Source: Ricordea florida
Lineage: Eukaryota > Cnidaria > Anthozoa > Corallimorpharia > Ricordeidae
Length of the DNA stretch: 64,000 nucleotides
NCBI GenBank assembly: GCA_949710005.1
Contig: OX453287.1
Coordinates: 10,030,805 to 10,094,804 of the forward strand
Direction: 5' to 3'
Both the position numbers and the translations under genes were made by a program. Below are positions 144 through 34,489 of the stretch, one piece after another. Under the pieces are notes generated by a model. That model saw nothing but the letters and a program-made list of their open reading frames with translations. It was not told where the DNA came from and searched no databases. Every line of letters starts with the position of its first letter. Position 1 is the stretch's first letter.

Positions 144-281
144 CTGGGGAGGGCTACGCCCGATCCCGCACATTAAAAATTTCATATGAGAGAACTGATG
201 TAGGATGTAATTGTTTTGCAGGTATTAGAAAAGAGGTTATATAATCTAAAGGTTTTTCATCTTATTCTAAAAAGTAATAAA

Positions 282-1832
282 ATGACACTATGGATTGATT
301 TCAAAAATAGATACCCAAATGCTGATCTAAGTAAATTTACATTTGTGAATGATTCATATGGAGGATATATTAAGTGGAAAGTTAATGGAACAACAATCAT
401 GTCAAATGATGATCTTACTGGAAAAACATGGACTGATGATCTTCCTTCTAATTTGAAAAAACTTTTATGGGAAAATTTAGGCTTATCATTAGTTGAAGTG
501 AGTTCTTTTCCAAAAAGTTTATCCATAACTAATCAATCTTACCCAATACCTGCTATTAATTTTGATGATTTTGCAACTGATGTAACAAAAATGCTAACAT
601 TTCTAGATATATACGTTTCAAATACTAAAAAATTCACAGCAAAAATGCGTAATGTTTTTACCAATCAAGTTGTTACTTTCAAATTTGGAAAGCAGAGTAA
701 AAAATGGTTGAATGCTCCTGATATGAATTATTGGCCACAGCAACTTAATTTTGCAGTATGGTGTGCTACATCTGGGTGTGGAATAAGTCCTTTTGAAAGT
801 TTAAATTACCCAAAAGTAGTGAACAGCTTTCTAAAGTTTCATATATATTTCACAATAAGGAGGATATTACATGAATTAAGTCTTCCCTTACCTAATGAAC
901 AACCATTTGTAATAAATAATAATCCTTATAGTAAAGTAGCATATCAACGTTTGTGTGCAGAATTTAACATATCAAAAAACTCAGATTTCAGATGGAAAGG
1001 TGGTAGAAACGAAGGATTAGGAGATATATTCCTTGATTATGGTGCAGGTTACAATGGTAAAGGTGGTGGATATCAAAATGTACATATTGTAAGAAATTAT
1101 GATGTTGATGCGGATAAATATCCTGGTGAAGGTGGTAAATTTGCTGATGAAGGTGGAAAGAAAGAAATGGGTAATTTAATTTCATTCATACGTAATGATG
1201 ACTTTGCTGATTTTAAATATGCATGGTTTATACCAACAGGCGGTCATGGTCTCACTAAAGCTGGACTCGGTAGATTGAATCAATCCGTTGAAGCTTTTGT
1301 TTACTGTATATTAGGGGCACAAGTTAATACTAGAAATTCTATTTATGGCAATGGTGGGGGAGCTTTTGAAACACAACAAGAATTTTTACATTTATTTGAA
1401 AAAAGTGTTTTAGAAGATGATATTTCTAATTCAATTAAAAGATATCAATTAGCTGTACAGGAATCTAAATTACGACTTGATTTAGCTATTGCTCCTGGTG
1501 TATGGTTGATGCCAAGTAATATGATTATAAACACAGAGAGTATAGTTGGTTATAATAACAAACTTATGAAAGCGACAGATGATATGAAATTTGGAGTTAA
1601 TAATTCATTAAACACAGAATCAAAACCAGTTGGAATAAACCATAACTTAGGATCTTCAAAAGTAAATTTACCACATATACCAGAAACTAAACCAAAAACA
1701 CTAACGAAAACAGACTCAACACAAATAGATCTAATCAAAAATGAAAATAATATTGACTCAACAGAACATGAAAAGAATTTATTAACATTTATACTTATAG
1801 GAGGTTCAATAGCTTGGTATCTATTTCGTTAA
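282..1832 (+). CDS. Conserved Polinton-like element protein, C-terminal membrane anchor (copy A)
   Basis: The protein has 516 residues if translation starts at the ATG at 282. That start is chosen because the homologue in copy B begins with the same MTLW sequence; an open frame continues upstream to 216 without support. The body is soluble and rich in aromatic and glycine residues, with GGRNEGLGDIFLDYGAGYNG near residues 245-265. The last 20 residues form one hydrophobic segment, typical of a tail anchor. I do not recognise a domain. Its place beside the other small virion-type genes suggests a structural protein. A TCTAAAG-type motif lies 20-40 bases upstream, as for other genes of the element. 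It is convergent with the gene at 1889-2398. Confidence 0.75.
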   Translation: MTLWIDFKNRYPNADLSKFTFVNDSYGGYIKWKVNGTTIMSNDDLTGKTWTDDLPSNLKKLLWENLGLSLVEVSSFPKSLSITNQSYPIPAINFDDFATDVTKMLTFLDIYVSNTKKFTAKMRNVFTNQVVTFKFGKQSKKWLNAPDMNYWPQQLNFAVWCATSGCGISPFESLNYPKVVNSFLKFHIYFTIRRILHELSLPLPNEQPFVINNNPYSKVAYQRLCAEFNISKNSDFRWKGGRNEGLGDIFLDYGAGYNGKGGGYQNVHIVRNYDVDADKYPGEGGKFADEGGKKEMGNLISFIRNDDFADFKYAWFIPTGGHGLTKAGLGRLNQSVEAFVYCILGAQVNTRNSIYGNGGGAFETQQEFLHLFEKSVLEDDISNSIKRYQLAVQESKLRLDLAIAPGVWLMPSNMIINTESIVGYNNKLMKATDDMKFGVNNSLNTESKPVGINHNLGSSKVNLPHIPETKPKTLTKTDSTQIDLIKNENNIDSTEHEKNLLTFILIGGSIAWYLFR

Positions 1833-1888
1833 ATTTTATATATTTTGTTATGTAACACTTATTTGTGTTATACAACATAATCTTCTTA

Positions 1889-2398
1889 TCACAACTCTCC
1901 CCATCGTTCTTTCAAATCCCTTGACTCTTCAAAATCAAGACACCAATCCATATATCTATCTGGATGCCATGCTATAGACATTATTTCTTCATGTAGGTCT
2001 TTGTAGAATTTCTTTTTATGATTTATTTTATCAACATTCATTTCTTTAATAACACGAATTGAATCAAGAACAAAATTATTATAAGGAATATATTCAGCAT
2101 CATAATATTCCTTATCATATGGTCCTTTATCAATATTAAATAAAAATTGTTCGTAACAATCACTTCCTATATATTCAAAATCAAAATTTTTATCATAATA
2201 AGGCAAAACAATATAACTCTTTTCACCATCATTATTAAGATAAAAAAATACAAAATTAATCGATTCAATAAATCCAATATTTTTTAAGATATTGTATATT
2301 AAATCTGACTTTATTGACTTTATAAAATCTTCAATAACTAGTTTTTCTAAATTTAAATATTGCAAACTATTATATTTTTTTACTGATAACTTTTCCAT
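1889..2398 (-). CDS. WHPxR-family protein of Polinton-like element, 169 aa
   Basis: This acidic, AT-rich reading frame ends with the pattern WHPDRYMDWCLDFEE followed by a tryptophan-glycine-glutamate tail. The same ending occurs in its neighbour at 2487-2957 and in the broken gene at 20257-20922, so the three form one family duplicated within these elements. The N-terminal two thirds vary. Similar WHPxR endings occur in uncharacterised giant-virus proteins, as I recall. The function is unknown. It lies in tandem with the next gene on the same strand with an 88-base AT-rich gap. Confidence 0.65.
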   Translation of the reverse strand: MEKLSVKKYNSLQYLNLEKLVIEDFIKSIKSDLIYNILKNIGFIESINFVFFYLNNDGEKSYIVLPYYDKNFDFEYIGSDCYEQFLFNIDKGPYDKEYYDAEYIPYNNFVLDSIRVIKEMNVDKINHKKKFYKDLHEEIMSIAWHPDRYMDWCLDFEESRDLKERWGEL

Positions 2399-2486
2399 CT
2401 TTTTTAATATTATATTTTATATCTTTAAATTAATATTAAAAATTCAAATTTTATTTTAAACAACATTTTTTACATTTTCTATTTTG

Positions 2487-2957
2487 TTAATCTTCTCCCC
2501 ATAACTCTTTCAAAAACTTTAATTCCTCAATATCAACACACCAATCTAAATACCTATCTGGATGCCATGTTACTTCCATTAATTCTTCTTTCAATTCTTT
2601 GTAAAATTTTTCTTTATGCAATATTTTATAAATATCTTTGTATAATGTAATATTTAACGAATCAATAATAAAACTTCTAAAATCTTTATCACATTCACCG
2701 TACAACGATTCATAACACTCTTCACTAAGAAAGCCTATTATATCATTCAAATCAATTTTTTTTAAATCTTCAGAAAAACAAAAATAAGATTTATAATCAT
2801 TATCTGTATAACAAATTTCAAAATCAATAAATTCATCGTTATAACTACGATTTTTTGAGATATTAAATAATAGATTATTATTAATTGACTCTATAAAATC
2901 ACAACCACCAAGTCTTTTTTCATGAATATATTCAAGCTCAATTTCAATATTATCCAT
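2487..2957 (-). CDS. WHPxR-family protein of Polinton-like element, 156 aa
   Basis: This 156-residue paralogue of the preceding gene shares the C-terminal block WHPDRYLDWCVDIEEL and a conserved region around FIESI near the N-terminus. It is closest to the interrupted 20257-20922 gene of copy B, which shares the DWCVDIEELKFL ending. No catalytic motif is evident. It sits between its paralogue and the SAP/zinc-repeat gene near the element terminus, the same slot as in copy B. Copy A therefore has two of these genes where copy B has one. Confidence 0.65.
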   Translation of the reverse strand: MDNIEIELEYIHEKRLGGCDFIESINNNLLFNISKNRSYNDEFIDFEICYTDNDYKSYFCFSEDLKKIDLNDIIGFLSEECYESLYGECDKDFRSFIIDSLNITLYKDIYKILHKEKFYKELKEELMEVTWHPDRYLDWCVDIEELKFLKELWGED

Positions 2958-3018
2958 TTTTTAATACTATTTTTTATATTTAAATTAACATTAAAAATTC
3001 AAATTTTATTTTTTATGT

Positions 3019-3415
3019 TTAACAACATTCTTTACATTGTCTCTTTTGTCTATTATGTTTACATATTCCTTTACCTTTACACTCTATACAGATATACCTT
3101 TGTAATTTATGTTTGCATATTTGAGAACCTTTACATTCTTTACAGTATGATTTAATTTTATTATGTTCACATATTTGAGATCCTCCACACTCTTTACAAA
3201 AATATCTACACTTTCCATGAATACAAATATAATTATTATTATTATTTTTTTTTATTAATAGTATCTTTTGGTATTAATTTAATAATCTCCTCATATGGAA
3301 AATTTTTTAACTCTTTAATAAAATCTTCTTTACGCATTCTAGATCGACCTTTAATTTTCAACTCTTTTGAAATTTTTTTTAATTCCACAAATTTTAATCT
3401 TTGTAACTTTTCCAT
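3019..3415 (-). pseudogene. SAP-like plus Cys/His repeat protein (copy A), frameshifted
   Basis: Read on the minus strand from an ATG at 3415, the first 55 residues form a SAP-like helix pair (ELKIKGRSRMRKEDFI). An A-rich run near 3235-3255 then gives a stop, and the remaining part continues in another frame to a TAA at 3019-3021. The second part contains repeats of the type CxH-x6-CKECxGS, as in the intact homologue at 19771-20217. The lesion is in a homopolymer, so an assembly error is possible. SAP domains bind DNA and the Cys/His repeats probably bind zinc (family knowledge). Confidence 0.65.
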
Positions 3416-3485
3416 TTATACTTTCTTAAAGTAATTCTTTAAATTAACATTAAAAAATTCAAAAATTTATTTTCTTTCTTAGTAA

Positions 3486-3955
3486 AAATCTCTGTTTAAT
3501 TTTCTGATAAATTCTTAAACAATTTTTGCGGATTTTGTGGATTTTGCGGATACTTTTGTAAACGTGGGAAAAAAAAATCTCTGTTTAATTTTCTGATAAA
3601 TTCTTGAACATTTTTTTTGTCTTCGTATCATTACGGATACTTTTTTAAAACGGGAAAAATCTCTGTTTAATTTTCTGATAAATCCTTGAATAATTTTTGC
3701 GGATTTTGTGGATTTTGCGGATACTTTTGTAAACGGGAAAAAAAATCTCTGTTTAATTTTCTGATAAATTCTTGAACATTTTTTTTTGTCTTCGTATCAT
3801 TACGGATACTTTTTTTAAACGGGAAAAAATCTCTGTTTAATTTTCTGATAAATTCTTAAACAATTTTTGCGGATTTTGTGGATTTTGCGGATACTTTTGT
3901 AAACGGGAAAAAAATCTCTGTTTAATTTTCTGACAAATTCTTGAACATTTTTTTC
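3486..3955. repeat. Alternating tandem repeat at terminus of copy A
   Basis: Six repeats each begin with AATCTCTGTTTAATTTTCTG, at about 3486, 3577, 3658, 3743, 3827 and 3912. Two unit types alternate. One has a double GGATTTTG / GCGGAT core; the other has CTTCGTATCATTACGG. Unit length is 81-91 bases, giving a higher-order period near 170. Tandem subrepeats inside inverted termini are common in Polintons, so this may be part of the terminal inverted repeat of copy A. Confidence 0.85.
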
Positions 3956-3986
3956 TGTCCCCGAAACCGTGATTTACATATCTCTC

Positions 3987-4108
3987 TATAGCATCAGTGA
4001 AAGGTTAATTGGCGTTTCGCTGAACTCAGCAAAAGCTTACGGTCAACGATCATTGGATAACTCCGATCGGGTGATCTTGCATAAAGGTCAACCAAGGTCG
4101 ACAAAAAC
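3987..4108 (+). repeat. Left terminal inverted repeat of element C
   Basis: This segment pairs with 16239-16360 in inverted orientation. Differences are GGCG/GACT near 4013-4016 and AAAAGC/AAACGC near 4031-4036. It includes the stretch TAACTCCGATCGGGTGATCT, identical on both sides. Confidence 0.8.
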
Positions 4109-4242
4109 AGGAATCTAAGTTTTCTTTGAGCTCCGCTTGTATGCAATAAAAGGAGCTAACGACCTCTGGTAGGTCATTCTCTTCGGAGCGGACAGTGTCT
4201 TACAACGAAGCCAGAACAAACAGTATCAGGAGCCACTACAAT

Positions 4243-5104
4243 ATGGAATTTCAGGTCAGTCATTTCATTTCATTGCAATTTTTGTTTGAGAGAGTCTGAA
4301 ATAAAAGAAGAACTAACGGAAAGACTAACTGTTGTTTTTTTTCTAGTACTGCATGTCTGACGAGGAACTCGTTCAAGCCATGGAACAGTGGGAGACAACG
4401 AACAACTGCGATCTGAGTCATTTGCTGGAAGATCAGGTAAATTTAAGTTTTCTTCTTGTTGATTTCGTTTACATTTGTGCAAAGAGTTGTTACACCGATG
4501 GTTTTTTAACCATATTCTATTTACTATGTACTTAATTAAGATCTTTAAAACTTGTATAGCACGATGTGAAACGCCTAACAATACGCAGTTAATTTTGCTA
4601 TCCTTTCTTGCCTTGCGCAAGAACACTGAAGCAAATACCTTGTATGCCGTTTGATTCCAAATGTTAAGACATTAAAATCGTGATGTCCACTAAGCCTATA
4701 AACTCTTTTCCGCAGTGTACGTTACCGCTAGTATACTTATCGATATTTATTATGCCTTAAACTAATTCTAAAAGTAACAGCTATTTCTTTCTGCAATTCA
4801 CATATCTATATTTATGCTGCCTATAAGCTTTCTCTGGAAGTAACGTTACCGCTGTTTGTTTCTGCAAGTACGCATATCTGTATTGCTTCCGTTAAGCCTT
4901 TTATGTTATGGTACTGCTGTTTGTTTCTGCAAATATGCATACATAAATTCATTGTCTTAACCTAATTCTGTAAGTAGCGGTATTCCTAGGTAGTAAATAT
5001 AGTCATGATGTCTTTCTTAGATTGGCGATGACGACTGTTTCTTCGCGGAAGAACAGACAGGAGCAGGACAGCGTCTGTGGCAAGCTGAACAGTTCTACAA
5101 TCTT
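4243..5104 (+). pseudogene. 5' exons of element C DNA polymerase gene
   Basis: Three short exons are proposed. ATGGAATTTCAG (4243-4254) is followed by GTCAGT. The second runs from TACTGCATG at 4347 to 4437, ending at CAG/GTAAAT, and encodes MSDEELVQAMEQWE. The third starts at 5021 after TTTCTTAG and runs to 5104, where element D interrupts it. The acidic start resembles the N-termini of a large family of cnidarian PolB-type proteins as I remember them. The first micro-exon is the least certain. The polymerase frame resumes after element D at 10552, one base out of frame. Confidence 0.5.
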
Positions 5105-5126
5105 CATGGCCAGAAATCCGTGACAG
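5105..5126 (+). repeat. Left terminal inverted repeat of element D
   Basis: The 22 bases match 10530-10551 perfectly in inverted orientation. CATG at the outer edge is likely the target duplication. I see no RSS-type CACAGTG heptamer at the end. Confidence 0.8.
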
Positions 5127-5796
5127 CATGGCCGCCACGCACGCGCATCGATAACGAACGGGGTCTTAGGTTACAAACGCGTCGCAAAAACCATTACAAG
5201 GAAAACAGTGCAATTTCAACTAACCTTCTTTTAATAATTGCTCCTACGATACAACCGCCGAAGGTGACAGTTTCTTCCAGATCGCAAAATAAAGTGGACT
5301 ATTTGTACAACCTTTCGCTGCATGCTGTACGTCCTTTTACGTGTGTTTAAGTAGTTCCCGAAGCGATTTCTGTTGGACGCATAAATCCTTGCACTCCGCC
5401 ATACATTTTCTTAATAACAGTCCAAAGTGAGCATAAAATTCCCAAAATTAGGCCACTTGGCAGGTTTGCATGAATGTTCTTCCAGATCGTACTGTTTTGT
5501 TTACATGTTAAACTTCATTTACCATCCAAAATTAGGTACCATTAAAGCCCCTAAATCGGTTCCGAACTTGGTCGAAAAACAGTCCAAATACTACTGAAGA
5601 ATCCTCAAAGCGACGCCATTTTTAAAGTCCGAGAAAGGTACAGAAAAATACCATGTTTTTAGCCCGTCGTAAACCGTTGTCTCTACCCAATTCTATTCTC
5701 CATCTTGAATCCCAAACTGCTTCACTCTAACTTGGTAACCTTGCCTTCATAAATTATGCAACTGAAACATAACATCGCCGAAAATTTACAAGTAAA
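5127..5796. other. 5' region of element D, no gene
   Basis: These 670 bases lie between the left terminal repeat and the transposase start. An open frame at 5120-5350 has no recognisable content. The stretch presumably holds the transposase promoter; no clear TATA box or splice pair was identified. Confidence 0.4.
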
Positions 5797-8469
5797 ATGA
5801 GCGTCGAATTTAGTCAATGTTGCTCGCGTTTCAAGGATGCAATCAGATTCACTCAACCGGAATTAAGATATGAAGCGAGGGAAAGAGTGAAAAGAGTGCT
5901 TTTTACTTTAGAAATTCCCTATCCCCTTTTGAGAGAATGGCATAAAGTTGTTCAAGAACAAAACGTGCTTTCGACTAGCACTTCCGGTGAAGATTCCTCA
6001 ATCGGAAGTGAAGAGAGAGAGGCAAATTCTCCTTCTACAAGCGCAGCTGAAAACCCACTCGGGGTGAAAAGGTTCACCTACATAGATTTGGTGGAAAAGT
6101 GCACATTCGGGCAATGCTTTGCCTTTAGCGACGATGAAAATGTACGAAGTGAAATTGATGCAGCTTTGTTAAATATTGCCTATAAAATTTCATTAGATTA
6201 CAAAAAAACTAAAGGCAGGGCAAGAAAAGAGCTTGATAATCGAGTCCGAAAGTTTCATGTTATGGAGGGTCAAGCAAAATCTGTTCAGGAACTCTACCAA
6301 GAAATTAGAAACATAGAAAATGAACTACAGGAATGGAAATCAAACTATAAGAATTTAGAAGTAGAGAAGGAAAGAATCTATGAGGAAATGGTGCTGGCAG
6401 TGAAACAAAGGGAAAATAAAACACAAGTTTTGCAGAAAACAAACAAAGAACTTGAAGATTACATTGGATCATTGGAAAAATCAGTAGGAATTAGTTCATA
6501 TCAGGGAAAACCTCTTTCAACTGTGAAAAATAAGTTCAGGACCTTGAAAACTTTTCTTTCACGAGCTGAAGCTGCTCTTTGGTTCTGCTCTTCCTTTGGT
6601 GTTGAACTACTAAGTTTAACTGTAAAAGAATCAGACTCTAATGTGGTTCACCATATCACAAGTCAAGCAAACTGCCAGTATTCAGCCAGTCAAGAGGAAG
6701 GGGAAAGAAAGTACAGCTCCTTGCCTGAAGAAGAAAAAGAGTGTGTGGAAAAAATCCTCTTCCTGTTGGACAAATTTTGTGTGGGAGATGCATTCTATCA
6801 TGAAATTTCTATGATTACAGATGGTCTTCCACGCTCCTATTTGGTCAAGCAATGCCGTGATGAGCTAAACAAAATGTGCCAAATTGATCCATTACATGCC
6901 AAGTTTGAAGGGGCCAAAGTAAGTTCACTTGAAACTGTGTTCAAAGAGCATATCTCTGCTTTTCTCAAGCAAAACAGTGACTTTGACCCTATCACTGATA
7001 AAATCAAAATCAATGGTGACGGTGCAAGAATGACCCGAAATTCAAATTTTATTTTACTTTCATTTTCTATTTTGCAAACAGAGGAGTCAGTTATGTCAGC
7101 TAAAGGAAATAGAACTCTTGGTATAGTCAATGGATCTGAGAGTTATCACACAATAAAGGAGTCATTTCAGAGTTTATTCAGGGAAGTAAATGACTTAATT
7201 GCCACAGGCAAAATTACTGTGGATGGCCAGGAGGTTAAAACTGAATTCTATCTTGGTGGTGATTACAAATTTATCTTGCTCATGCTTGGACTCAAGGGGG
7301 CAACATCCAACTATGCTTGTGCCTGGTGTAAAATACACAAGACTGATCGCTGGAAAATCAATAATGACTACAACAGTTACAACACTCCACCCTTGGGAAG
7401 GACACTGGAAGAGATTTGGGAAATGTCACAAAAATCCAAAGAAAACTACTGTTGTGACTGGTGTGTTGTGTACTGTTGTGTTGTGTATCCCACTTGATCA
7501 TCCCACTTGATCCCACTTGAGCTTCACTTAATGCTGCGTGTCACAGATATCTTGCTTGAAAATATAGTACATGAGTGCCTAGACTGGGATAAAGATGATG
7601 ACTTGGACAGTAAAAAGGGGGCAGTAACAGGGTTACATCTAAAAAGCCTGATTGGGGCAATCAGATCTTGTGGTGTTTCGTTTGACGTGTGGGAACAACG
7701 AAATGCTGATGGAAAAGCTAGTGGCAAACATGACTGGACAAGCCTCTTGGGAAAAGACAAGAAGATCCTTTTGGCTGACCTCCCCAGCAAGTTACACAGC
7801 ATTCTCCGCCCAGAAACTGCATCAACTGTGGTTGAAGTCTGGACAGAGTTTGCTGAAATTTACAAAGTTGTCAATGGCTGGAACCCTAAGAAACAACCCA
7901 CAGAATTTTTCATGAAGGCAAAAGAGTGGATTTCTCTTTTTGTAAGTCTAAATGGCAAAAGAGAAGGGTATGAGAAAGCCAGAGTTACCCCATACATGCA
8001 CATCATGGTTGCACACATTCCCAAGTTCTTTGAGCTCCACAAGTCAGTCAAAATATTTACAGGGCAAGGGGTTGAAAAGAACAATGATGTAGCTCGTGCA
8101 ATAATTCTGCGGAAGTCCAACAAGTGGGATTCAGCTGGGGATGTTCTGCGACAAGAGCAACGTCAGTGGGAGCTTAAAGAACATGAAAGGGAAGTACGCA
8201 GTTATACAAAGCGCAAGGAAAGCTACTGGGATGTTGAAATTAAAGGAAACCGAAAGAAAGCAAGGGAACACTTCAGTCAAGATCCACGCCAGCAATCAAG
8301 TGAAGCTCAAAATGAACACCCCCCTTCTATGTCCACCAGCACTGACAATGACTTTTCTCATATGACAGTGAAGCAATTGAAAGAGGAATTAAAAAAGAGA
8401 AATGCCAAAGGATTTAGCAACAAAAACAAAATTGAACTTATCAAACAACTGCAGGAAATTTGTAAATAA
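5797..8469 (+). pseudogene. RAG1/Transib-like DDE transposase with C-terminal SAP domain, one internal stop
   Basis: A single frame encodes about 890 residues, broken only by a TGA at 7495-7497. There the motif ATCCCACTTG is repeated three times, a local duplication. Residues 165-240 form a coiled coil. Catalytic residues are D408 (GDGAR), D489 (LGGDYKF) and E in the codon at 8074 (GQGVEKNN). C508 and C511 (CAWC) and the two histidines of HIMVAH (codons 7999 and 8014) form a C2C/H4H zinc signature. Spacings D to C (19), C to C (3), H to H (5) and H to E (20) equal those of mouse RAG1 D708, C727, C730, H937, H942 and E962. Residues near 845-885 form a SAP DNA-binding domain. The gene converges on the chromodomain gene. 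It could alternatively belong to the related CMC group. Confidence 0.8.
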
Positions 8470-9250
8470 GAAAATATTTAATCCCAAAAAAGGAAACAAT
8501 TTGAAAACTAGACTATACATAATTAAAAGTTATCATCCATTACTCTAAGCCTTTCACTCCCAAAAGTAACCAAAATCAACCCTTAACAACAGTTAAAAAA
8601 TCAAAGGCACCTTTGAGCTACCTCATGGTCTGTGGTAATTATTTCATGAAGTGCTGTCCTTTCCCCAGACAATAAAGCGTTCATTCCGAATTTGTTTTGT
8701 GCACTCTTGCTACGACTGATCAATTACTCGTCGTCCAAATTGGAGACATCGTCACGTTTAAGACTTTAAAACCCATTTCTTTCCCCTCGAGCATTCTTGA
8801 ACACATTTCCTGTTAGTGTATTTTGATCAAAGATGGAGTGAAAGCAACGAAAACCCGCCTTGACAATCTTTACGTCGGGCTCGACACAACTGACGCCATT
8901 TTGTAAACATGTTTTGCCGCTTTGTCTCACCCCCTCCCCCCACATATGTGAACATAAAACAATAGCATGACTTTGTGGACAAAACCAAACCTAGTAGGGG
9001 AGACAGGGGAGAACCTGTTTAATTCACATTTAATGCAGATTTAATTCAAAATTAATTGTCTAACGGGAATGGAGTGACAAATCCATCCATCACTATACCT
9101 CATGGTATGAAGTACATAACATGAGGTAAAAGTTGATTGTGAAATAGCACTAAAGCAAATAAGTTATTGCTGCTGAAAAACTTCTTTCTATGTACAAAAA
9201 ATAAAGGTTTGTCAGTGGGAGTAAAAAGATTAAATTCAAAATACATTAAT
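8470..9250. other. Convergent 3' region between transposase and chromodomain gene
   Basis: No coding sequence is supported here. It should hold the 3' untranslated regions of both genes of element D. An AATAAA lies near 8670 on the plus strand. GC-poor stretches near 9040-9060 carry repeated TTAATTCA-type words. Confidence 0.5.
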
Positions 9251-10438
9251 CTAAGGCCTGAGGGTAAAAGGCTGCCGACCAAAGTCCAGGGAAAGCTTCT
9301 CAATTAGCATTCGCTGATCTTCTTGAAGCTCTCCTTGGACTATGGTAAATGTTTTGGGAGACTTAGCTAAAAATAAATGAACCTTGAAAGGGTACTTAAC
9401 CCTCACCCCATCCCCATTACTGTCACAAGCTACATCCCAGTTTTCCACAAGCTGACACCTTTCAAAGTCGCTTTTTTCAAGCAGGATGTAGCCCTTCTGT
9501 CTAGCCTCCCTCCCCTTCCCATAGAAAAGCATTCTGAAGCAATCATGCTCAAAATCAATAACCACATTGCTTCGGGATTTGCTTTTAAGTTTTGCGAGTA
9601 CTGATACCCGCAAGGTGTCAACTGCTTTGATCACCCTTTCCCTCGGAACTGGGGGCTTGTCATAATTTCTGCAATTGAAGGAAAGTATAAAATATAATTA
9701 GTAACAAAATTTTGCACTCTGGACAGGAAATGTTTTAAGCTAAACTACAATCCACAAAATATCATTTAGTACATTGTTACACAATTTAAATCAAAACATT
9801 AAAGCAAATGTAGAATGTTACAAGATAAAGAAGAGAAAAACTCTAATAATATACATGTATAATACAAGTACTTTTCAAAGAAATTGAAGATAAACACATT
9901 CGACTGAATTCAAGAAAATACCAAGGAAGCTTCAATCCATCACTCTAGTAATAACAACTTTAACATATCCTTCAGTAAAAGGTTGAAGTAACTACAAAAT
10001 ACGTTTTTCAATCATCTGACAATGAAAAGTTCTGCTAGCTGCAATTAAACTATACATCACCACTTAAGAGGTAAAAGTAAGCTCACCTGATAAGATCAAC
10101 AGTGAGGTATTCCTCGTCCTCCCAGCTATTATAAAATGCACTGTACCCAGACCACTTTATCAAATACTGAGTCTGAAAATTGCAAAGGATATGCTTCAGT
10201 TCAAAGAGCTAAATCAAGGGAGAAACAAGTGACAACCAAAGAAATTTAAACCTGAAACACTCACCGTGCCGCCTGCGGTCCTCTTTGATACGACCCGTTC
10301 GACGGGAAAAAAATTAGATTTTTTTGTTCGCCTTTTGTTGTTTTTTCCTCCCCAAACAAGATCTGAAGATGAAGCATTGTGCATCTGCACATACAAACCA
10401 CGAGTTCTTTTACTCGACGCTCGCACACCGTCCGCCAT
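9251..10438 (-). CDS. Chromodomain protein of element D, three exons
   Basis: On the minus strand, exon 1 runs 10438-10265, exon 2 10172-10087 and exon 3 9668-9251. The junctions are ACG/GTGAGT, TTTTCAG/ACT, CAG/GTGAGC and TTGCAG/AAA, with matching phases. The product is 225 residues with no stop. Residues 1-45 are basic. Residues 46-82 form a chromodomain: VERVVSKR, then QYLIKWSGYS, then NSWEDEEYL, with the aromatic positions (Y, W, W) retained. The C-terminal 120 residues (including GYILLEKSDFERCQLVENWD) are not recognised. Chromodomains read methylated histone lysines (family knowledge). Position inside the terminal repeats and tail-to-tail with the transposase suggests a targeting partner, as RAG2 is for RAG1 (inference). 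The intron at 9669-10086 is ordinary. Confidence 0.75.
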
Positions 10439-10529
10439 TTTACTAAGAGAAAGTTGGGAAATCTGATGCCTTTGCGCATGATCACTACGATGTTTCTGGT
10501 CTTTGCGAATCCTCGATGCATGCTGCTGA

Positions 10530-10551
10530 CTGTCACGGATTTCTGGCCATG
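10530..10551 (-). repeat. Right terminal inverted repeat of element D
   Basis: This is the inverted partner of 5105-5126. It lies only about 90 bases upstream of the chromodomain start codon, so it is probably within that gene's promoter. Confidence 0.8.
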
Positions 10552-13500
10552 TAGAGAAATTGCTCAATGCCACATACGTAAGTTCAAAACAACAGGTACC
10601 GATTACCTGCTTACATTGCAGCCCCAACCTGGTGGGCCTGCCTTGTCTGAGCAGTTGGGTGAGATCTTCGATTCCATGGTGCAAGAAATGACCAGTGGTA
10701 TGGCTAGCAATGATCTAGTGCGCTTTGTACTTTAAAGTCGCTCCTTAACATATCCAATTTCTTTACCGTTAATGCCTCAACACGAGCTCACGGCGAATCG
10801 AATCATGGGTGAAGTACAACGCGTCCTCCAATCGAATGAGGACGTGAATCTAGAGGATGGCATGCACGTTCATCTGGTCCACGTTGGTATGCCTCATGGC
10901 GGAAAAGGCTCCAGGAGAAAACGAAAGCATTATGGTTTTAAGCTGGACAGGTTTTTGGGAGCTAAGCAGAGCGTTATTCGCATCGCAAATAAGGACAACC
11001 TGTGTTTAGCCAGAGCACTTGCAACAGACATGGCTCGTCAAGAGAGACATCCTGAGTGGAACTCTATTCGCCAAGGACGTCAGCGTCAAACTGCTTTAGC
11101 TAAAGAGCTTCATCAGAAAGCGAACATTCCTGAAGGTCCCTGTGGTTTAGTTGAAGTCGAAACCTTTCAAGCGTCTATTCCAGATTATCAGATTGTTGTC
11201 CTGTCGGCCGAACATTTCAACGCGATTATATACGAGGGCCCCAAAAGAGACCAACAAATCTATCTGTACCATCACCACAATCACTTCGATATTATCAAAT
11301 CCATCTCAGCATTTCTCGGAAAAAGCTATTGGTGTCTGAAATGCAAAAAAGGGTATGACAAAAAGGAACAACATGTTTGCAGGAACGTATGCACGTGCTG
11401 TTACACAGAGGGATGTCAAGGGTTCAAGAACCGAGCACCATGGCGAGAATGCAGTAGCTGCCATAGAATATTCCGTGGTGATGCCTGTTATGAAAACCAT
11501 TGCCGTCCTAACAAGCAGGGTGAGTCGGTCTGCCAGAAATTTTACAAATGCCTCCAGTGTCAGAAAGTCCTGTCTAGCCACCGAAGAAAACCAGAAGACC
11601 ATCAATGCGGGGAAGTTAAGTGCCCTACCTGTCAAGAATTTGTAGATCCTAACCGTCATCTTTGTTACATTCAACCCATTCAATCAGAGAGTGAAAAATT
11701 AGAAAAGAGGAAGAAAAACCGAGGTCAAAAACGACAAAGAAGATCGGACGACTTACTTGACGATAGTGCAGTAGAAGAAGGAGAAGACGACGAACAAGAG
11801 GAAGGTGACGATGACGAACAAGAGTATCTCTTCTTTGACATCGAGTCTCGCCACTATGACGGCCGCCATATTGCCAATCTGTTGATTGTACAAAACCAAA
11901 ACGCCATCGTCATTGCGCATAACCTCAGAGGCTATGACGGCTTCCTCATTCTTGAATGGTTCTACAGTCAATTCCTGCTTCCAAAGCTGATCCTCAACGG
12001 TGCCAAAATCATGTCCATGGAGTTGGAATCTGCCACTATCAAGTTCCGAGACTCTCTCAACTTTCTTCCCATGCCACTCAAAGCCTTGCCCAAGACCTTT
12101 GGTTTGACCGAACTCAAGAAAGGCTACTTTCCACACTTCTTTAACCGACTAGAAACTCAAGATTACATTGGACCTGTCCCGCCCGTAGAAAACTATGATC
12201 CTAACAGTATGAGCAAGAGTGAAAGAGATGAATTCCTCGCTTGGCACCAAGAACTTCAAAATAGGAACCACGCCTTCGAATTCAGAAAAGAGATTATAGA
12301 ATACTGCCGAAGTGATGTCGACATTCTTCGCCGCTGTTGCTTGAAGTTCAAAGAACTCATGCAAGAAACCTGTGACCTAGACCCGTTCCTGCACTGCGTC
12401 ACCATAGCGTCAGCCTGCAACCGTGTCTTCCGACAACAGTTTTTACAGGAAGAAACTATTGGTCTCATACCGCCTCAATGGTACCAACCTGCCCGAAAGT
12501 ATTCTGTTCTGGCACTCAAATGGCTATCGTGGATTCACCATCAGACTGGCAACCATATTCTGCACGCACTTAACGGTGGTGAACAACGCATCAATGGTCA
12601 CTATGTTCATGGCTACGATCCAGAGCGCAGAATCATTTATGAGTTTATGGGCTGTTTGTGGCATGGTTGTAAGAAATGCTATCTCCCTGAGACGATCAAT
12701 CCCGTAAACGACACATCTATGGCAGACCTGAGGGAAGAGACCACGAGAAAAGTAGAAACATTCAAGAGGCTGGGGTACCAGGTGGAAGTGATGTGGGAGT
12801 GTGAGTTCCGTGAGCAGTTAGAAAGTAACGCAGAATTGACTCAATTTATTCAACAACTTACCTTTGACGCGCCACTCGAGCCACGAAATGCTTTCTTTGG
12901 TGGGCGAACAAATGCAGTGTGTTTGTACAAACAAGTCTCTACAGACGAGAAAATCCATTACGTGGATTTCACGTCACTCTACCCGTGGACGAACAAGTAT
13001 GGAACGTATCCCATTGGTCATCCAGAGATTTTAACCAGTGAAGCCTTGGTGAACCGCACCTCAGATGAATTCTATGGTCTTATAAAGTGTGACATGCTAC
13101 CGCCTTCATTCCTGTTTCATCCTGTCCTTCCGTACCGTGCTCAAGGCAAGCTAATGTTTCCTCTCTGCCGTACCTGTGCCGAAACACTACAGCAAACACC
13201 CTGTGAGCATACGGACGAACAGCGGCTGCTATCCGGCACCTGGTGCTCTATTGAGATCGAAAAAGCCCGGGAAGTTGGATACCGTGTAGTCCGCATGAAA
13301 GAGGTGTGGCATTTCCCGGAGAAATCGTCTCATCTGTTTTCAGGCTATATTGACACCTTTCTAAAAATCAAACAAGAGGCAAGCGGCTGGCCTTCCTGGT
13401 GTGATAGCGACAACAAGAAACATCAATACATCAGCGAATACCAGGATAAAGAAGGCATCGCACTAGACCCTACTAAAGTCAAGAAAAATCCTGGTCTACG

Positions 13501-14211
13501 TTCCCTCGCCAAACTGATGTTAAACTCGTTCTGGGGAAAGTTTTGTCAACGTGAAAATATGCCCCAGGTGGAGCTAGTGAAGGACCCTGAACGTACTTTC
13601 GTCTTCTGACTTGCCACTCTACACAAGTCAAGCACATTCAATTCGTCAATGAGGAGTGTATTGAAATGCACTACACGCATGGAGATGGATTCGTGACCCC
13701 CTCAGACAAAACCAATGTGGTCATTGCGGCCTTCACTACCGCCCAAGCACGACTCAAGCTCTATTCTGTTCTCGAACGTCTCCAACAACGGGTCCTGTAC
13801 TTTGATACAGACTCTGTCATTTTCACAAGCAAACCGGGTGATTGGGTGCCCCCTCTTGGCGACTACTTGGGCGAGCTCACCAATGAACTAGAGGATGACG
13901 ATTACATCACCACATTCGTCTCTGGTGGGCCCAAGAACTATGCGTACCAGACCAAGAACGGTAAAACAACCTGAAAGGTGAGAGGTTTCACCCTGAACTA
14001 CCGTGGCTCACAGAAGCTCAATTTCTCTACCATGTGTGCCCAGGTCTGTAACCCTCAAGAAGAACCCATCTCCCTGGAAAATCCACATTTCATCAAACGC
14101 GACTCTAAAGACAAGACCCTTGAAACTGTAAGTCTAACCAAACAATACAAGCTAGTTTATGACAAACGAGTGGCCCATGGACTTCACACCTTTCCCTATG
14201 GATACCGTTAA
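10552..14211 (+). pseudogene. B-family DNA polymerase of element C, main exon, decayed
   Basis: Downstream of element D the frame runs to a natural stop at 14209-14211, with a TAA at 10733, a frameshift near 13605 and a TGA at 13972. Counting from 10772, a possible papain/OTU-like unit has Cys near residue 77 (NLCLAR) and His near 147 (EHFNAII). Cys/His-rich zinc fingers span about 188-306. Exonuclease motifs follow: FFDIES near 354, HNLRGYD near 383 and YCRSDVD near 511. A VSR-like nuclease block (VHGYDPE, then FMGCLWHGC) lies near 612-635. Polymerase motifs are DFTSLYP near 731, KLMLNSFWGK near 914 and DTDS at about 13805. The gap between Exo I and Exo II looks some 60 residues short. This is the viral/organellar type-B polymerase family, often protein-primed. 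Confidence 0.85.
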
Positions 14212-27666: not shown

Positions 27667-28902
27667 TTAGTACTTAATGGAGCGCAAACCTGAATTCATT
27701 ATTTCCATCATTGCATCAGCCACAACAAACATATGACAGGTTATAGTGCCAGTTCCACTTTGTTTTCTTTTAATTTCTAGTTTTACACCATCTTGTGTAT
27801 TGTTTAATGCTAGACCCCCTCCATGAATACCATTATCAGGGTGAGTTCTCATATCAACCCAAAGAGCAAACTTATCAGCATAAAAATCCTTTTCCTTTAC
27901 CGACTGAAGGTATGAACCACCGAAACGTTTCTTTACCGACTCCCATAGATCTGATGGTATCATTCCCTTTGAGTATAAACGATTTGGTACACCATCAACA
28001 TCTATATTAATCGAGGTGATACCTGGATTGTAAAAATTCTCAGAATTACGTGCTCCTGCTGCATTTGGTAATGTAAACAAACATAATATCCCTGTCATTG
28101 ATCTTCTAGGTAGATTAATATGCTGATTTATAACACCATCACCACCTATGGAAAAGGTAAAAGTTTTGTGTAGAGTTACATTTTCATGAAAGAATCCTTT
28201 ACCAACCTGATAAGCTGCCTGAGCCTCACGAGCCAAGTATTCGCTTGAAATGGAAGAATATTCTAACTCAAGGTTTTTTATTGAATATGTTGGAGTCTTG
28301 GTAGTGTCAGAAAAAACAACAATATCATTAACTGGAGCAAGTGTAATCTCAAAGATTAGATGATTATCTAGTGCCTTTGGATAGAAAACTCCATGATCGT
28401 TTAGAATGGGATGGTTTAGTGGTATACGATACTTGGTGTTATGTACTTTTGAAAGATCTACTTCCTTTGTATCTTGTGTTTTTCCATCACCTGCTTTTGT
28501 CCTAAGTTTTCTCATGTTTACAGAAGAAATACCTTGTTTTAATCTATCTTCACGTTCTTCATCTGTTAAGAATAAGTCATGATATGTTTTAAATAGATCA
28601 TATCTTTGAGTATCCTGTAATGTTTCACCTCCAAAAAGAACTCTAAGTCTAGATACAAGATTACTACCTACATTATTCACAAGTGTATTATTTGCATGCC
28701 CATCAACATCTAAATCAAATAGTAGAGATACACTTCCTGGTACAATCACTAAATTCTCAGAAAGTTTTGGAATATTTATATATAATGTTTCTCCAGGGCT
28801 AGCCGAGGATGGATTGAGAGTAATTCGATTTAGTGTTGATTCTGCTTTCAAACCAAATGGCTCTCTTGGAATTCTGTTTGGGTTAATTTTTTCAGACGTC
28901 AT
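27667..28902 (-). CDS. Major capsid protein, double jelly-roll type (predicted)
   Basis: The 411-residue protein is intact. Its N-terminal part (ASPGETLYINIPKLSENLVI, then SLLFDLDVDG) and the later VSRLRVLFGGETLQD match my memory of a conserved capsid-type protein in fish and cnidarian Polinton-like elements. Glycine-rich loops and predicted strands run throughout, and there is no membrane segment. Position beside the packaging ATPase is the usual capsid slot. The call rests on recall and context, not on a search. It is divergent to the integrase gene, with only 34 bases between the starts. Confidence 0.75.
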   Translation of the reverse strand: MTSEKINPNRIPREPFGLKAESTLNRITLNPSSASPGETLYINIPKLSENLVIVPGSVSLLFDLDVDGHANNTLVNNVGSNLVSRLRVLFGGETLQDTQRYDLFKTYHDLFLTDEEREDRLKQGISSVNMRKLRTKAGDGKTQDTKEVDLSKVHNTKYRIPLNHPILNDHGVFYPKALDNHLIFEITLAPVNDIVVFSDTTKTPTYSIKNLELEYSSISSEYLAREAQAAYQVGKGFFHENVTLHKTFTFSIGGDGVINQHINLPRRSMTGILCLFTLPNAAGARNSENFYNPGITSINIDVDGVPNRLYSKGMIPSDLWESVKKRFGGSYLQSVKEKDFYADKFALWVDMRTHPDNGIHGGGLALNNTQDGVKLEIKRKQSGTGTITCHMFVVADAMMEIMNSGLRSIKY

Positions 28903-28936
28903 ATTTGATTTATAAGATACTTTGGTTAATCTTTAA

Positions 28937-29932
28937 ATGAGTTCCACCTTATCGAAAAATTTCAGTAGTATATATTATTCAACTTTGGGATATTGGAAAG
29001 GATATTCTGCAATTCCTAAATTAGCTGAAAAAGCAAAAGTAAGTGAATATGTAGCAAAACAATGGTTAGAGAAACAGGCAATATGGCAAATATATCTACC
29101 ACCTCCCAAATATATACCTAGACCACACTGGAGTGTAGATAAACCTAATCAGATTCACCAAGCAGATTTATTATTTTTACCACATAATAGAGTTGAAAGA
29201 AAAACATATAAATACGCATTAGTTGTGGTTGATGTTGCCTCAAGATATAAAGATGCAGAACCATTAACCTCAAAAGAAAGTCATGAGATATCCAAAGCTT
29301 TTGAAAAAATATATTTCAGAAAAATGAAATATCCTAAAACATTAACTGTTGATCCTGGAAGGGAATTTATGCGTGATGTGACAAAACTTATGAATTACCA
29401 TAATGTGAAAATACAGAGAAGTGAAGCTGGAAACCATAGAGCTCAAGCATTTGTTGAAAGAGCAAATAGAACATTAAGTGAACGATTATTTAGTCATCAA
29501 TATGCACAAGAAATGGTTAGTGATGAAAGGTCTAGAGTATGGGTGAAAAGATTACCTGATATTTTGAAAACTTTAAATAATACACCTACGAGAATAACTG
29601 GTAAAGAACCTAATAAAGCTATAAAAATGAAAGAGGTTTATATTGAACCAAAAATGTACCAACGGGAGGTGGGTCTTGATGAGGTTAGATTACCAATTGA
29701 GGTTATGGTTAGATATTTACTTTTTCCTGGTGAACTTGAGGGTGGTGAAAAAAGAAGAGCTACAGATCCTATTTGGAGTATTCAGATTTATTATATTTCA
29801 GGTAGTAAGGTTTCTTCTAATCAACCAGTTTTATATTTTTTACAAGATGGTCCAAGACGTGGTTTTGTAAGGGAGGAGCTTCAAGTTGTGCCTTTTGATA
29901 CTGAGTTACCTCCTGATTCTGTTTTGAAATGA
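28937..29932 (+). CDS. Retroviral-type (RVE) integrase
   Basis: The 331-residue integrase has a DDE triad: D near 77 (HQADLL), D near 139 (VDPGREF) and E near 174 (FVERANRT), with about 34 residues between the last two. An N-terminal helix-turn-helix-like part precedes the core. The C-terminal 60 residues, with two aromatic-rich strands, are the expected DNA-binding region. It inserts the element and makes the short target duplication (family knowledge). All catalytic residues are present. It ends one base before the polymerase stop on the other strand. Confidence 0.9.
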   Translation: MSSTLSKNFSSIYYSTLGYWKGYSAIPKLAEKAKVSEYVAKQWLEKQAIWQIYLPPPKYIPRPHWSVDKPNQIHQADLLFLPHNRVERKTYKYALVVVDVASRYKDAEPLTSKESHEISKAFEKIYFRKMKYPKTLTVDPGREFMRDVTKLMNYHNVKIQRSEAGNHRAQAFVERANRTLSERLFSHQYAQEMVSDERSRVWVKRLPDILKTLNNTPTRITGKEPNKAIKMKEVYIEPKMYQREVGLDEVRLPIEVMVRYLLFPGELEGGEKRRATDPIWSIQIYYISGSKVSSNQPVLYFLQDGPRRGFVREELQVVPFDTELPPDSVLK

Positions 29933-29933
29933 T

Positions 29934-32900
29934 TTAAGAAACGGGGTATGTGTGAATTCCATCCTCATCAACTATTCTTTTATCATAATATGCATTCAAT
30001 CCTTTTTTAATTTGTGTATATGTCACAATTTGGTTGTCATTGACTCTAAAACCAGTATTTTGTGCCATATCAATCGACCCTTTCAAAGCTGACATGTATC
30101 TATCCCAGTTCATTTCATTTTGTCTATGAATTGTACCTTTACAACTATACTTTACTTTTCCATTCTCATTTTCTGCGTAATTTTTTTTGATGAAAGAGCA
30201 ATCATTCTAATACCATCAAACTCCTTCTTGAACAGCCCGGGAGTCTTGTCGTGATATTTCGATGTTGATAGAAATTTTTCTTTCCCACCATTTAAGTATT
30301 CTTTTTGCATTTCAGGTTTTATAATATTATCCAATTTTTCAGCCGAAATTGCCATGTACATAGAATCTGTATCCATTTGTATCAGTTCAAAATCCTTTCT
30401 ATCTACATATTTATCAAGAAAATCGTAATAAAATTCCAACATGCGAAGTTTGGCTAGCTGATATACCGCGATACCACATTGATAGGGCCGGTCTATTCTT
30501 ATTTCTTTTTTTCGTTTTATTATTTCATATGTTTCATTTATTTCTGTAAGATCTTCAAATAATGGGGATCTTAAGGCTTTATTAACTTCATTCTCATCCT
30601 GAGTATACATTGTGTTCTTATGTTTTTCTTTATCTTCTATCATTTTCCCATAGAATGAATTTCCTTTCAGTTTGTAAGTATCAGCTAGTGCTTTACAACC
30701 TTTATACTTTGGCCTTAGTTTTTCAATCAATACTTTAATGTCTTTGTGCTCTTCAATAAATGGTACCACATCGGGGAATTTTTTTAATTCATTAATAATA
30801 TTTTCTACCTCATCTTTCTCTTTTTTATTAAAAAAAATACTTAACGCTTTTATCATATCCTCAATATCACCATCTCTTCGCGCGTTACTAACTTCTTCGG
30901 GAAACCATTCAAAAGGTCTTCCGGGTTCATACTTTAAAATATTATGTATGGCTGTAATCTCCAATCCGTGCTTAAGATACCATTCAAGTAATTCTGTATA
31001 TAAAAGTATCTTTTTTGCCTTTGTAACCCCTAATAATTTTTTATTATCTTTTAGGTGCTTTCTACCTGTAGCTTTTTGATATTCTTTCATATGATCTGGT
31101 ACCAAATCTTCAGGAACACTATCTACAACAAATAGTGGTGAGAACTCTTCAAACTTTTCTTTTAGGTTTTCGGGTACATTTATATCAACTTGACAAAATC
31201 CAAAAAGTTTACCATCAAGAATCTCTTTACAAATCTTCTTAATAAATTCAGGATCTGTTGGGTTTTCAACCTCAATACATTCCCCTTTACCGCATGGCAT
31301 TTTTTGTCCCGCCGCGAAAAGATATAACCCATTTGCATCATAACCAATAATTCTTACACAATTTTTTGCGAATTTAAATTTATGGGATCTAATCTTTGTT
31401 TTACCTAACTCTGCATATCGCATGAACACAATACTAGGGCCACCAACCATACCCGTTTTCAATAGTTTATAAATTTTGTTTTTGTCACATGTTTTACAAT
31501 TGTTCATTATCTGGTGGCATTTTTTACAAAACACTTTATTACAAACTTTATTACATCTATGAGCACAATATTTTCCAGGAGCAAATAATTCATGATAACC
31601 TTTCTTTTTCATTTTTTTTATTTTTTGATATTTATTTAGAACGTATATCATTGATACACCTGGGATGGATACGGCATCTTTTAATATATCTATTTTGTCC
31701 GGATAATACATTGCACGTGTTTTTTCTAACGCTTCTTTGAAAGGAATAACATCATTTAGGTTATATTCTCTCAACCAATCCTTCTGGGTTACACAACCCC
31801 TCTTTTTGTATTCCATCTTATATTCTTCATATTCTTCAAAGGATATTGTCATTTTCTGGTGTAAGCTTGAATAAAAGTTTTCATATTTCACAGGACCCAC
31901 GTGAGAAAGTTTTTCATAACTATCCAAATTTTCATAATCAAGAAAAAGTTTTCTAGCTTCACAGTTGTTTGCTTTACACCACTTATCAAAAGAAAGTCCA
32001 GGGGCCAAGTAAGACATTACATCTAAAAATTTGAATTTTGGTGTTGTTAAAAACACATGCTTATTACCATTTTTTGCAACAAAAATATCTTTGGTTTTAT
32101 TTGTCATGTGTTTTACAAAATATCTTTTAATCACATTGATATCATACTTTCCACTATTGAAACCTAAAACAGGAACTTGATTACACCATTCTTCATACTT
32201 CTCTAAAACTGTCTTTGGTATAGAATCTTGGTCAGGTAGTGGATATTCTTTTTTAACCTTTTCAACAATCTTTTTTCTTCTCTTTTCTAAATTTTCAACA
32301 AATTCTTTTACAAGCTCTTCAGGGTTTTCATTTATAATACATGTTGGTTCTTTTTCATAAGTATCATGAATTCCAACGCTAACTGGGATATGTGTTTGGT
32401 TAAAAGATAAATCATCAGTAATTTGTTGGTGTTCTTTTTGTAATATTGACTCAAAATCATAAAGAATAAAATCTGGGTACGGGATAAATTTCTTTTCTAA
32501 TTTTTCATTAAACCCAGATTCTGCATATATTATATTTTTTTTGATTTCTGGTTCTTCACACTCCCAAACTGATACAACATTATACCCCAAATCTTTCATT
32601 ATCTTTTCTCTTTGGATAGTTTCATTATATTTAGTTTTATCATTGCTTGAACATGGGCAACCGTGCCATTTACATCCATTAAATTCAAAAACAGTATTGG
32701 TCTCAGGTTCGTATCCATCTACCAAAAAAAGCTCCTTCCCACTTTTATCTTTAACACACCTTTCACCACCATGACCACATAGAGCGTGATGAATGTGTTT
32801 ACCTATTTTTGAAGCCTGTTGTTCAATCCATATACACCCCAAATAACTATATTGGGTATTACCACCATAAAAAATTTTTTCAGCGCTGTTGGGAATGTGA

Positions 32901-34489
32901 TTTATCTTTTTACCGGTACATATTACTTCTGTTTTTCCTCCTTTACAGCTGTTATTTTTTACATGATCATGATAATTACCATGCCTGTTAAATATTTGTT
33001 TACATCCTGAACATTCCCATTTTTTTGTTAGCAACTCTATATCCTTTATGAAAAAACAGTGACCCTCATGAAGTCCCATATTTAGACAAGGTAAATTATC
33101 TTTGAACTGACCTTTACCAAAAACTAATTTCCAAATTTCATTGTTTCCTTTTTCTTTTTGCTCGTAAAGGCGAATGTTAATAGAAAACATTTTTGCAATT
33201 TTCTCAAAATCAACAAGTTTTGTGGCCCTAACTTCTGAAGCTTTCAATTTTTTGTTATTATAAAAATCTCTGGCCAATTTCAGTGTTTGTTTTTCAATGT
33301 CCTTTTGGGGTGTTTTTTTACCGGCAAGAATGTTCAAGAGAATAGCCAAACACATCCAAAAACATAGATTATCATCCCTATCATCGACGGCATAAAGACA
33401 TTTTTTATCACGTAGAGCATCTGGTAATTTTCCACACCCAAGTAGAGGCTCGTCACTGTGAATAACTTTTACTTTTACCTCTGTAAATTCAACTCTACCT
33501 TCACGAACACCTGGTTTATCAATGATCTTTGATGGTGGTAAGTATGCTTTACTCCAAGCAATGCCTTCAAAACTCAATCTTTCTCCCTCACACCGCTCAA
33601 TATAATCTTTTATTTCAGAAAGCATGGTAAAAGTCCCCTCACTCCTAAATGTGTAAGCGTGATAAGCTATTTCTCCATTACCCCTATGAATTAAATCACT
33701 AAAACTGACAACAATTCTTGAACGCATTTCTATGTGTGGTTCCAATTCATTGAAAATCATTTCTGATAAGTCATTATCTAGATCTCTCCTAAATTGGAAA
33801 ATAGTTTCATTTCTTTCGATGATATTTTGAATATCTTCTTCATGTTCATTAGGTCTTATTGGAAATATTCTAAGGGTTGTTGTTCTTTTTCTTTTAGTTT
33901 TTTTGTCTTTTTTTGTTTTAGATTTTGCCCCCTTCTCCACATTATTCTCTTTATCTTTTTCATAAACCCTACCTTTAATTGAATCTTTCTCTCTTTTGGT
34001 TTTTTCCGTTGGTTTGATAACTTTTTTATTGGCGAGATTATTAAGCGATTCATAAAACTTAACCCTGTCTGTAACCCGATAGTTATTTATTATCTTCTTT
34101 TGATTTTTATTAGGTAGTTTTTCATTGGTGTTAACTGCAAGTGTATCAAAAATCTTAACTCTATCGGCGACTTTAAAAGTTTTGGTAATTATTTTAGTTG
34201 GGGGTTTTTTTGTTGCTTTTAGATCTTTATATGATTCAAATAACTTAACTTTTTCTTTTACATTTGATTTTTTCGGGTGGGCTGAGGTTGGTGGTTTTTG
34301 TGATTTTTTTCGCATGTTTTGTATTTTCTTTTTAAGCTCTTCAACAATTCCGGGTATTTTTCTTATCTTTTTTATAAGTTCAGATTCACTCATTTTAGAA
34401 TAATCTTTAATACCATGATTTTTAGCAATCTTTTTCAAAGTATTAAGTTTTCTCAATTCTTTCGCCTTTTGATTCTGTTCTTGTTCCAT
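29934..34489 (-). pseudogene. Protein-primed-type B-family DNA polymerase, C-terminal frameshift
   Basis: The frame from 34489 encodes 1445 residues to 30152. The family's last segment continues in another frame to a TAA at 29934-29936. The shift lies in an eight-base homopolymer at 30180-30187, so a sequencing error is possible. Features in order: SAP-like (10-45); basic linker; possible papain/OTU-like unit with Cys near 376 (NLCFW) and His near 477; C2H2 finger near 494-515; VSR-like nuclease block near 588-612 (FNGCKWHGC); Exo I near 675 (YDFES), Exo II near 776 (NSGKYD), Exo III near 910 (YNLND). Polymerase motifs A, B and C lie near 1050, 1277 and 1373 (DTDS). It replicates the element (family knowledge). 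All visible catalytic residues remain. The start lies inside the terminal repeat. Confidence 0.85.

Follow-up and report, generated by a model that had tools for sequence, protein, structure and literature searches.

The window analysed here, the whole 64,000-nt stretch of contig OX453287.1 from the corallimorpharian Ricordea florida, carries at positions 5105–10551 a complete two-gene DNA transposon, in which a plus-strand gene for a RAG1-related DDE transposase converges on a spliced minus-strand gene for a chromodomain protein (hereafter the partner). Both the pairing and the orientation of the two genes are conserved among copies and families of the element, and the chromodomain retains aromatic cage residues. 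An earlier note on this DNA had likened the chromodomain protein to RAG2. We recognised no description of such a transposase-chromodomain pairing in titles, opening lines of abstracts and selected passages of the open PubMed Central (PMC) literature; an account confined to Repbase or to a subscription journal is possible. The features of the element, with transposase columns in the numbering of transposase P0001, are as follows.

5105..10551, 5,447 bp, no strand assigned: complete two-gene DNA transposon, family W, delimited by homology edges in 12 single-piece copies and by empty paralogous sites
5105..5126, plus: left terminal inverted repeat (TIR), CATGGCCAGAAATCCGTGACAG, a perfect 22-bp inverted match to 10530–10551, kept in copies
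10530..10551, minus: right TIR, a perfect 22-bp inverted match to 5105–5126, kept in copies
5797..8469, plus: RAG1-related DDE transposase gene (118 homologues; profile matches to RAG1L and RAG1), with a coiled-coil-like N-terminus, a DDE core and a weak SAP-like C-terminus
7018..7020, plus: likely first catalytic Asp (GDGARM motif), invariant column D422 in two family alignments
7261..7263, plus: second catalytic Asp (GGDYKF), invariant D503, opposite the Asp of YDEK in the RAG1 (3jbw) alignment
7318..7329, plus: CxxC zinc motif, invariant C522/C525, aligned to the CxxC of RAG1L and RAG1
7999..8016, plus: HxxxxH zinc motif, near-invariant H744/H749, aligned in RAG1L and RAG1
8074..8076, plus: catalytic Glu (GQGVEKNND), near-invariant E769, opposite the Glu of EGNE in the RAG1L and RAG1 alignments
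10265..10438, minus: partner exon 1 (N-terminus and start of the chromodomain), part of a coding sequence that 14 of 17 copies keep intact
10087..10172, minus: partner exon 2 (rest of the chromodomain, YLIKWSGY..SWEDEE), conserved in families B, C and D
9251..9668, minus: partner exon 3 (conserved C-terminal domain of ~138 aa, of no known family), with 143 homologues

Element boundaries, copies and insertion sites

The edges of the element are defined by its own copies: homology to 12 single-piece copies starts and ends within a few bases of 5105 and 10551, and at empty paralogous sites this interval and one additional base are missing. The perfect 22-bp inverted ends described in the earlier note can be read directly from the sequence, and an automated inverted-repeat report for the same ends gives arms of 26 nt that are 96% complementary. 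A search of the surrounding genome (537.8 Mb, 48 contigs) with the left end returned 19 matches. A further 17 loci were retrieved: 12 are full-length copies in a single piece, 97.5–99.1% identical to the window copy, L018 and L024 have both ends together with inserts, L022 and L023 are truncated or rearranged, and L025 is an end-like match only. Both ends are present in 14 other family W copies, and the near identity of the copies suggests that the family amplified recently. The other copies, the empty sites and the conservation described below rule out an assembly artefact or a chance open reading frame (ORF).

Related families in the genome have similar ends: terminal sequences are CATGG in families W, B and C and CATT in family D, with TIRs CATGGCCAG (W), CATGGGGAG (B), CATGGCGAAC (C) and CATTGCCAG (D). 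The termini follow the form 5'-CA..TG-3', from which L013, L016, L018, L025, one family B copy and one family D copy depart at one end or both. Outermost bases are altered in L018 and L016 (both family W), the B copy at C8:19717800 and the D copy at C2:18568373, symmetrically at both ends in L018, and such alterations may tell how the ~1-bp target duplication arises.

The target duplication of this lineage is about 1 bp. Comparison with empty sites gave one base beyond the element in four of five copies (the window copy, L015, L017 and L019) and none in L009; the comparison for L019 is a 60-nt alignment, and the window copy was compared with four empty sites, of which one (L035) has an ambiguous alignment. 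Of 22 copies, 14 have the same flanking base on both sides (p = 1.4e-4 relative to an expectation of 25%); the four copies with altered outermost bases were excluded. A target duplication of CATG or AT, which had been suspected from the copy ends, is ruled out because the empty sites lack CATG.

Polinton-like DNA surrounds four of the 15 both-ended W copies (the window copy, L009, L015 and L017). Within the window, Polinton/Maverick-like elements lie at 10736–13609 (plus), 27667–28932 (minus), 28937–29932 (plus) and 30152–34513 (minus), and a capsid search of the genome returned 6,190 first-look candidates, the best 100 of which were scored and were 93–100% identical to that of the window. Since such elements are so abundant in this genome, we make no claim that the transposon targets them.

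Relationship of the transposase to RAG1

The plus-strand transposase of the earlier note is present at 5797–8469, but the reading frame of the window copy is broken by short tandem duplications at ~7440–7530. Nine other copies have an uninterrupted frame of 895 aa, so the gene is intronless, and an intron at 7440–7530 is ruled out by these copies, which read through. The SAP match of the C-terminus reaches 20.3 bits, under the Pfam cut-off of 23.9. Scoring of the best 8,000 candidates yielded 118 transposase homologues, and those named include sequences from Stylophora, Pocillopora, Desmophyllum, Nematostella, Exaiptasia, Dendronephthya, Paramuricea, Saccoglossus and Mytilus; named close relatives of both the transposase and the partner are anthozoans, mostly stony corals. 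A scan of viral contigs for the transposase gave no match.

Our comparisons support a kinship with RAG1 that is genuine, though remote. In the PDB, the transposase family profile matched RAG1L 6b40 (E-value 6.4e-9) and RAG1 3jbw (E-value 3.4e-7), which we take to be the lancelet and zebrafish proteins, respectively. The CxxC, HxxxxH and E were aligned in both structures and the second D in 3jbw, within a segment whose match is weak when taken by itself (independent E-value 1.5). D422, which would be the counterpart of the first RAG1 Asp, lies outside the RAG1 alignments returned. The RAG1-type spacing that the earlier note had claimed also holds, with 19 residues from D489 to C508 of the window copy, CxxC, HxxxxH and 20 from the second H to E, and the same spacings can be counted in 3jbw. 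Pfam PF12940 (RAG1) was matched in four of 44 transposase family members (best E-value 1.3e-4). With a core profile, the RAG1L encoded by this genome scored an E-value of 5.5e-8 and the best among five CACTA-like ORFs 5.5e-4; one of these ORFs is under the Pfam cut-off and was not reported by the profile, nor were four decoys. No Transib chain was found among the best 60 of 95 PDB matches.

Given the profile matches to RAG1L and RAG1, the shared spacings, the weaker CACTA-like match and the lack of decoy matches, sequence comparison indicates that the transposase is a RAG1 relative inside the broad RAG1/Transib/CMC group, and by "RAG1-like" we mean membership of that same broad clade. These scores, which are pairwise profile scores, give no indication of a grouping outside it.

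The same genome contains a RAGL element (L052, C15:3040300-3047000), in which a RAG1L gene at 674–3580 on the plus strand (969 aa, with a RING and a Pfam RAG1 match of 259.9 bits) is convergent with a gene at 3807–5387 on the minus strand for a 527-aa protein that matches kelch and PHD. This element and its other copy, L053, are 99.6% identical over 242–5395; at the right end the heptamer CACTATG can be read, and no matching left TIR was found. L052 is a true RAG1L–RAG2L pair, of a lineage separate from the chromodomain-partner transposons. RAGL in coral has been reported previously, according to the portions available of PMC7204232 and PMC9435367.

The chromodomain partner and its pairing with the transposase

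The partner is the three-exon, 225-aa minus-strand gene anticipated from the sequence, with GT–AG introns in correct phases. Its coding sequence is whole in 14 of 17 copies, counting that of the window; L016 has a frameshift, and exon 1 is missing from the stretch examined in L022 and L023. Residues 46–91 match the Chromo domain PF00385 with a score of 44.4 bits (curated cut-off 25.1), and the same domain scores above the cut-off in P0125, P0126, P0131, P0163, P0196, P0218 and L059. The closest PDB matches are likewise chromodomains (CBX7, CHD1 and HP1 structures, E-values of about 1e-7 to 1e-6), which bears out the original identification. At the three aromatic positions presumed, by comparison with HP1 and CBX, to form the methyl-lysine cage, families W, B, C and D have F/Y, W and Y, and the Dendronephthya protein P0163 has Y, W and F. 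Neither kelch nor PHD was found in the partner by Pfam or PDB searches, and the same Pfam scan detects both in the genome's own RAG2L. The domain encoded by exon 3 has no confident match in the PDB (best E-value 0.35) or in Pfam (best E-value 0.025, in one of 13 members).

Substitution patterns indicate that the partner is under purifying selection, with a constraint similar to that on the transposase. The ratio of nonsynonymous to synonymous substitution (dN/dS) is 0.14 for partner exon 3 (D30 versus D32) and 0.13 for the transposase (W versus B); values of 0.25 (W–C28) and 0.26 (W–D30) for the partner come from pairs near saturation at synonymous sites, and most other family pairs are saturated or nearly so. 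The partner has evidently been retained because it does something for the element. Within family C, L028 and L037 differ in that one copy lacks ~297 bp around partner exon 2 while the remainder is >99% identical, a difference that may reflect an ongoing loss of the partner or else sequence inserted into the other copy.

Pairing of the two genes is a regular feature of the element. Two transposase searches of the genome (best 52 of 818 and best 60 of 1,044 candidates scored) were merged into 62 loci, 46 of which have partner exon 3 within 5 kb on the 3' side, in convergent orientation in all 46. An initial count had placed the partner near 42 of 48 transposase loci, where the chance expectation for that list is ~0.0004 per locus. 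Four more families were opened (L026–L029), with transposases 41–89% identical to P0001, and each has a convergent partner, of which L027 retains just part; three further family D 3' regions (L030–L032) likewise all contain a convergent partner. Across the five families opened, the transposases are about 40–74% identical to one another and all are accompanied by the partner.

The pairing extends to the octocoral Dendronephthya gigantea, in which the transposase (LOC114518936) and partner (LOC114518939) have equal scaffold lengths and near-consecutive locus numbers. Sequence identities of transposases and partners are correlated in six pairs from within the genome and Dendronephthya (rho 0.75; 276 of 20,000 permutations). 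The correlation is 0.43 across all 10 pairs (402 of 20,000) and 0.85 (17 of 20,000) without two mismatched pairs, which were removed after the result had been seen. Equal scaffold sizes coincided between transposase and partner matches six times, against ~0.4 expected (best 120 of 143 partner matches). We reject these coincidences as evidence of pairing, since two (4815 and 3794) join different families and are probably accidental; the other four are consistent with true pairs.

A sister lineage, E, comprises transposases ~28–33% identical, with open frames of 777–886 aa, at C8:22557767-22559959, C10:18375354, C8:27139039, C16:12514889, C4:26411566, C2:23909081 and other loci. Two of its 3' regions were opened (L060 and L061), and both have a convergent ORF with a stretch that appears chromo-barrel-like by eye and a similar second half. 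Matches of this lineage E partner to the PDB were not significant, the best being a colicin (E-value 0.047), with the ARID4A chromobarrel at 0.25.

Role of the partner and comparison with known systems

By analogy with RAG1 and RAG2, we suggest that the partner probably serves, on balance, as a chromatin-reading subunit of the transposition complex, in a RAG2-like role. The transposase would act on the CATGG...CCATG ends and insert the element by cut-and-paste with a target duplication of ~1 bp. In the partner, the HP1/CBX-like chromodomain would bind the methylated tail of histone H3, and the conserved C-terminal domain may contact the transposase or the ends. Cutting or integration could thereby be coupled to marked chromatin, as by the PHD finger of RAG2 for RAG1, through an unrelated fold.

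Several observations weigh against a chromatin-reading subunit. The partner is absent within 5 kb from 16 of the 62 transposase loci, which are 15 partial matches and one right-truncated copy; its absence, which the earlier note had offered as a test, is thus confined to truncated copies or partial transposases, such as L022 (C15:5225562), where an 884-aa frame is open in a copy cut off on the right. The insertion sites of the 15 both-ended W copies show no sign of chromatin targeting. The cage is partly lost in two homologues, with two of the three positions affected in P0125 and the third in P0126. For the lineage E partner, no chromo match in Pfam is significant, and the profile comparison that relates it to the partner family is moderate only (probability 68%, E-value 4.9e-5, 177 columns); from these sequences, a common origin of the two is nevertheless likely.

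One alternative is that the partner acts outside the transposition complex, as an HP1 mimic that occupies H3K9 or K27 methylation and displaces host silencers so that the element is expressed. An HP1/CBX-type chromodomain in a small separate protein suits such a function, and transposons with chromatin-modifying genes (TET/JBP, SET) are described in the available text of PMC12730594. Anti-silencing alone, however, leaves the widely conserved second domain of the partner unexplained, unless that domain serves dimerisation or host contact, and we consider this explanation rather unlikely. The partner could instead be mainly a cofactor of the transposase or of the DNA ends, with a chromodomain used for protein or nucleic-acid contact rather than for reading methyl-lysine. 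Here the degenerate cages of P0125 and P0126 would find a place, as would the lineage E reader, barrel-like by eye yet lacking a significant Pfam match, and TnpA/TnpD-type systems offer a precedent for two subunits. Retention of the cage aromatics in families W, B, C and D, in L059 and in Dendronephthya argues against a cofactor of this kind, and we regard it as improbable.

That a host chromodomain gene was captured once and rides along without a role is already disfavoured, and we think it highly improbable. A spliced gene within a transposon whose other gene is intronless does recall such a passenger, and so do the 44 of 90 exon-3 places that have no counterpart in the transposase list, a count that also tells against a transposition subunit. 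These 90 places were hand-picked among the matches listed (157 in total), after removal of the exon 1 and exon 2 rows, of second pieces of a single place and of short N-terminal matches. L059, the sole unmatched place opened, adjoins a remnant of a transposase C-terminus and keeps its aromatic cage residues, and the gene has been retained under constraint across families whose transposases are ~40% identical and in an octocoral.

If the partner is indeed a chromatin-reading subunit, RAG1-related transposons may have gained a histone-reading second subunit at least twice: as the kelch/PHD protein RAG2 in RAGL and, independently, as the chromodomain protein here, in a lineage old enough to include stony corals and octocorals, with lineage E and its divergent barrel-like reader as the deepest sampled branch. 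We offer this scenario tentatively, as a real possibility about which we remain somewhat doubtful. If true, a convergent reader would be something that transposases of this type need repeatedly, and not a peculiarity of the RAG locus. Arguments over the dependence of RAG1 on RAG2, and over the reason for which RAG2 reads a histone mark, have drawn on RAG and RAGL elements. The present elements, a second RAG1-related lineage, have amplified recently, keep open frames in several copies and have an unrelated partner of chromatin-reader type where RAG2 would sit, and they provide an independent comparison. Their target duplication is also unusually short for a DNA transposon.

RAGL/ProtoRAG elements provide the closest parallel, having a RAG1-related DDE transposase with the same layout and spacing of CxxC, HxxxxH and E, and a convergent second gene, 3' of the transposase, with a domain of histone-reader type. 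They differ in the partner (kelch and PHD in RAGL, a chromodomain and an orphan domain here), in the ends (CAC, resembling the heptamer of recombination signal sequences, versus CATGG), in the length of the target duplication (5 bp in the portion available of PMC7204232 versus ~1 bp) and in the RING, for which the Pfam scan gave no match in the window transposase. Transib elements have a 5-bp target site duplication and CAC ends, neither of which was found here. Because of its CATGG ends, its ~1-bp target duplication and a partner without kelch and PHD, the transposon is neither a RAGL nor a Transib element.

The CMCT clade, which comprises EnSpm/CACTA, Mirage, Chapaev, Transib, Plavaka, ESTA and Lanisha in the available text of PMC12730594 (Kojima 2025), shares with our element the C(2)C and H(3-4)H motifs between the second D and E, here in invariant or near-invariant columns, and the 5'-CA..TG-3' termini. 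Its target site duplications are given there as 2–5 bp, longer than the ~1 bp found here, and the word "chromodomain" is absent from that text. Chapaev has a RING according to the available part of PMC4411706, unlike the present transposase, in which the Pfam scan found none. Use of a chromodomain by a mobile element is itself familiar from chromoviruses (chromodomain-bearing long terminal repeat retrotransposons) and from Maverick/Polinton integrases, and chromodomains direct retrotransposon integration to heterochromatin, as the title of a paper cited in PMC10799480 puts it; in the Ricordea transposon, by contrast, the chromodomain is carried by a separate, convergent gene of a DDE cut-and-paste element.

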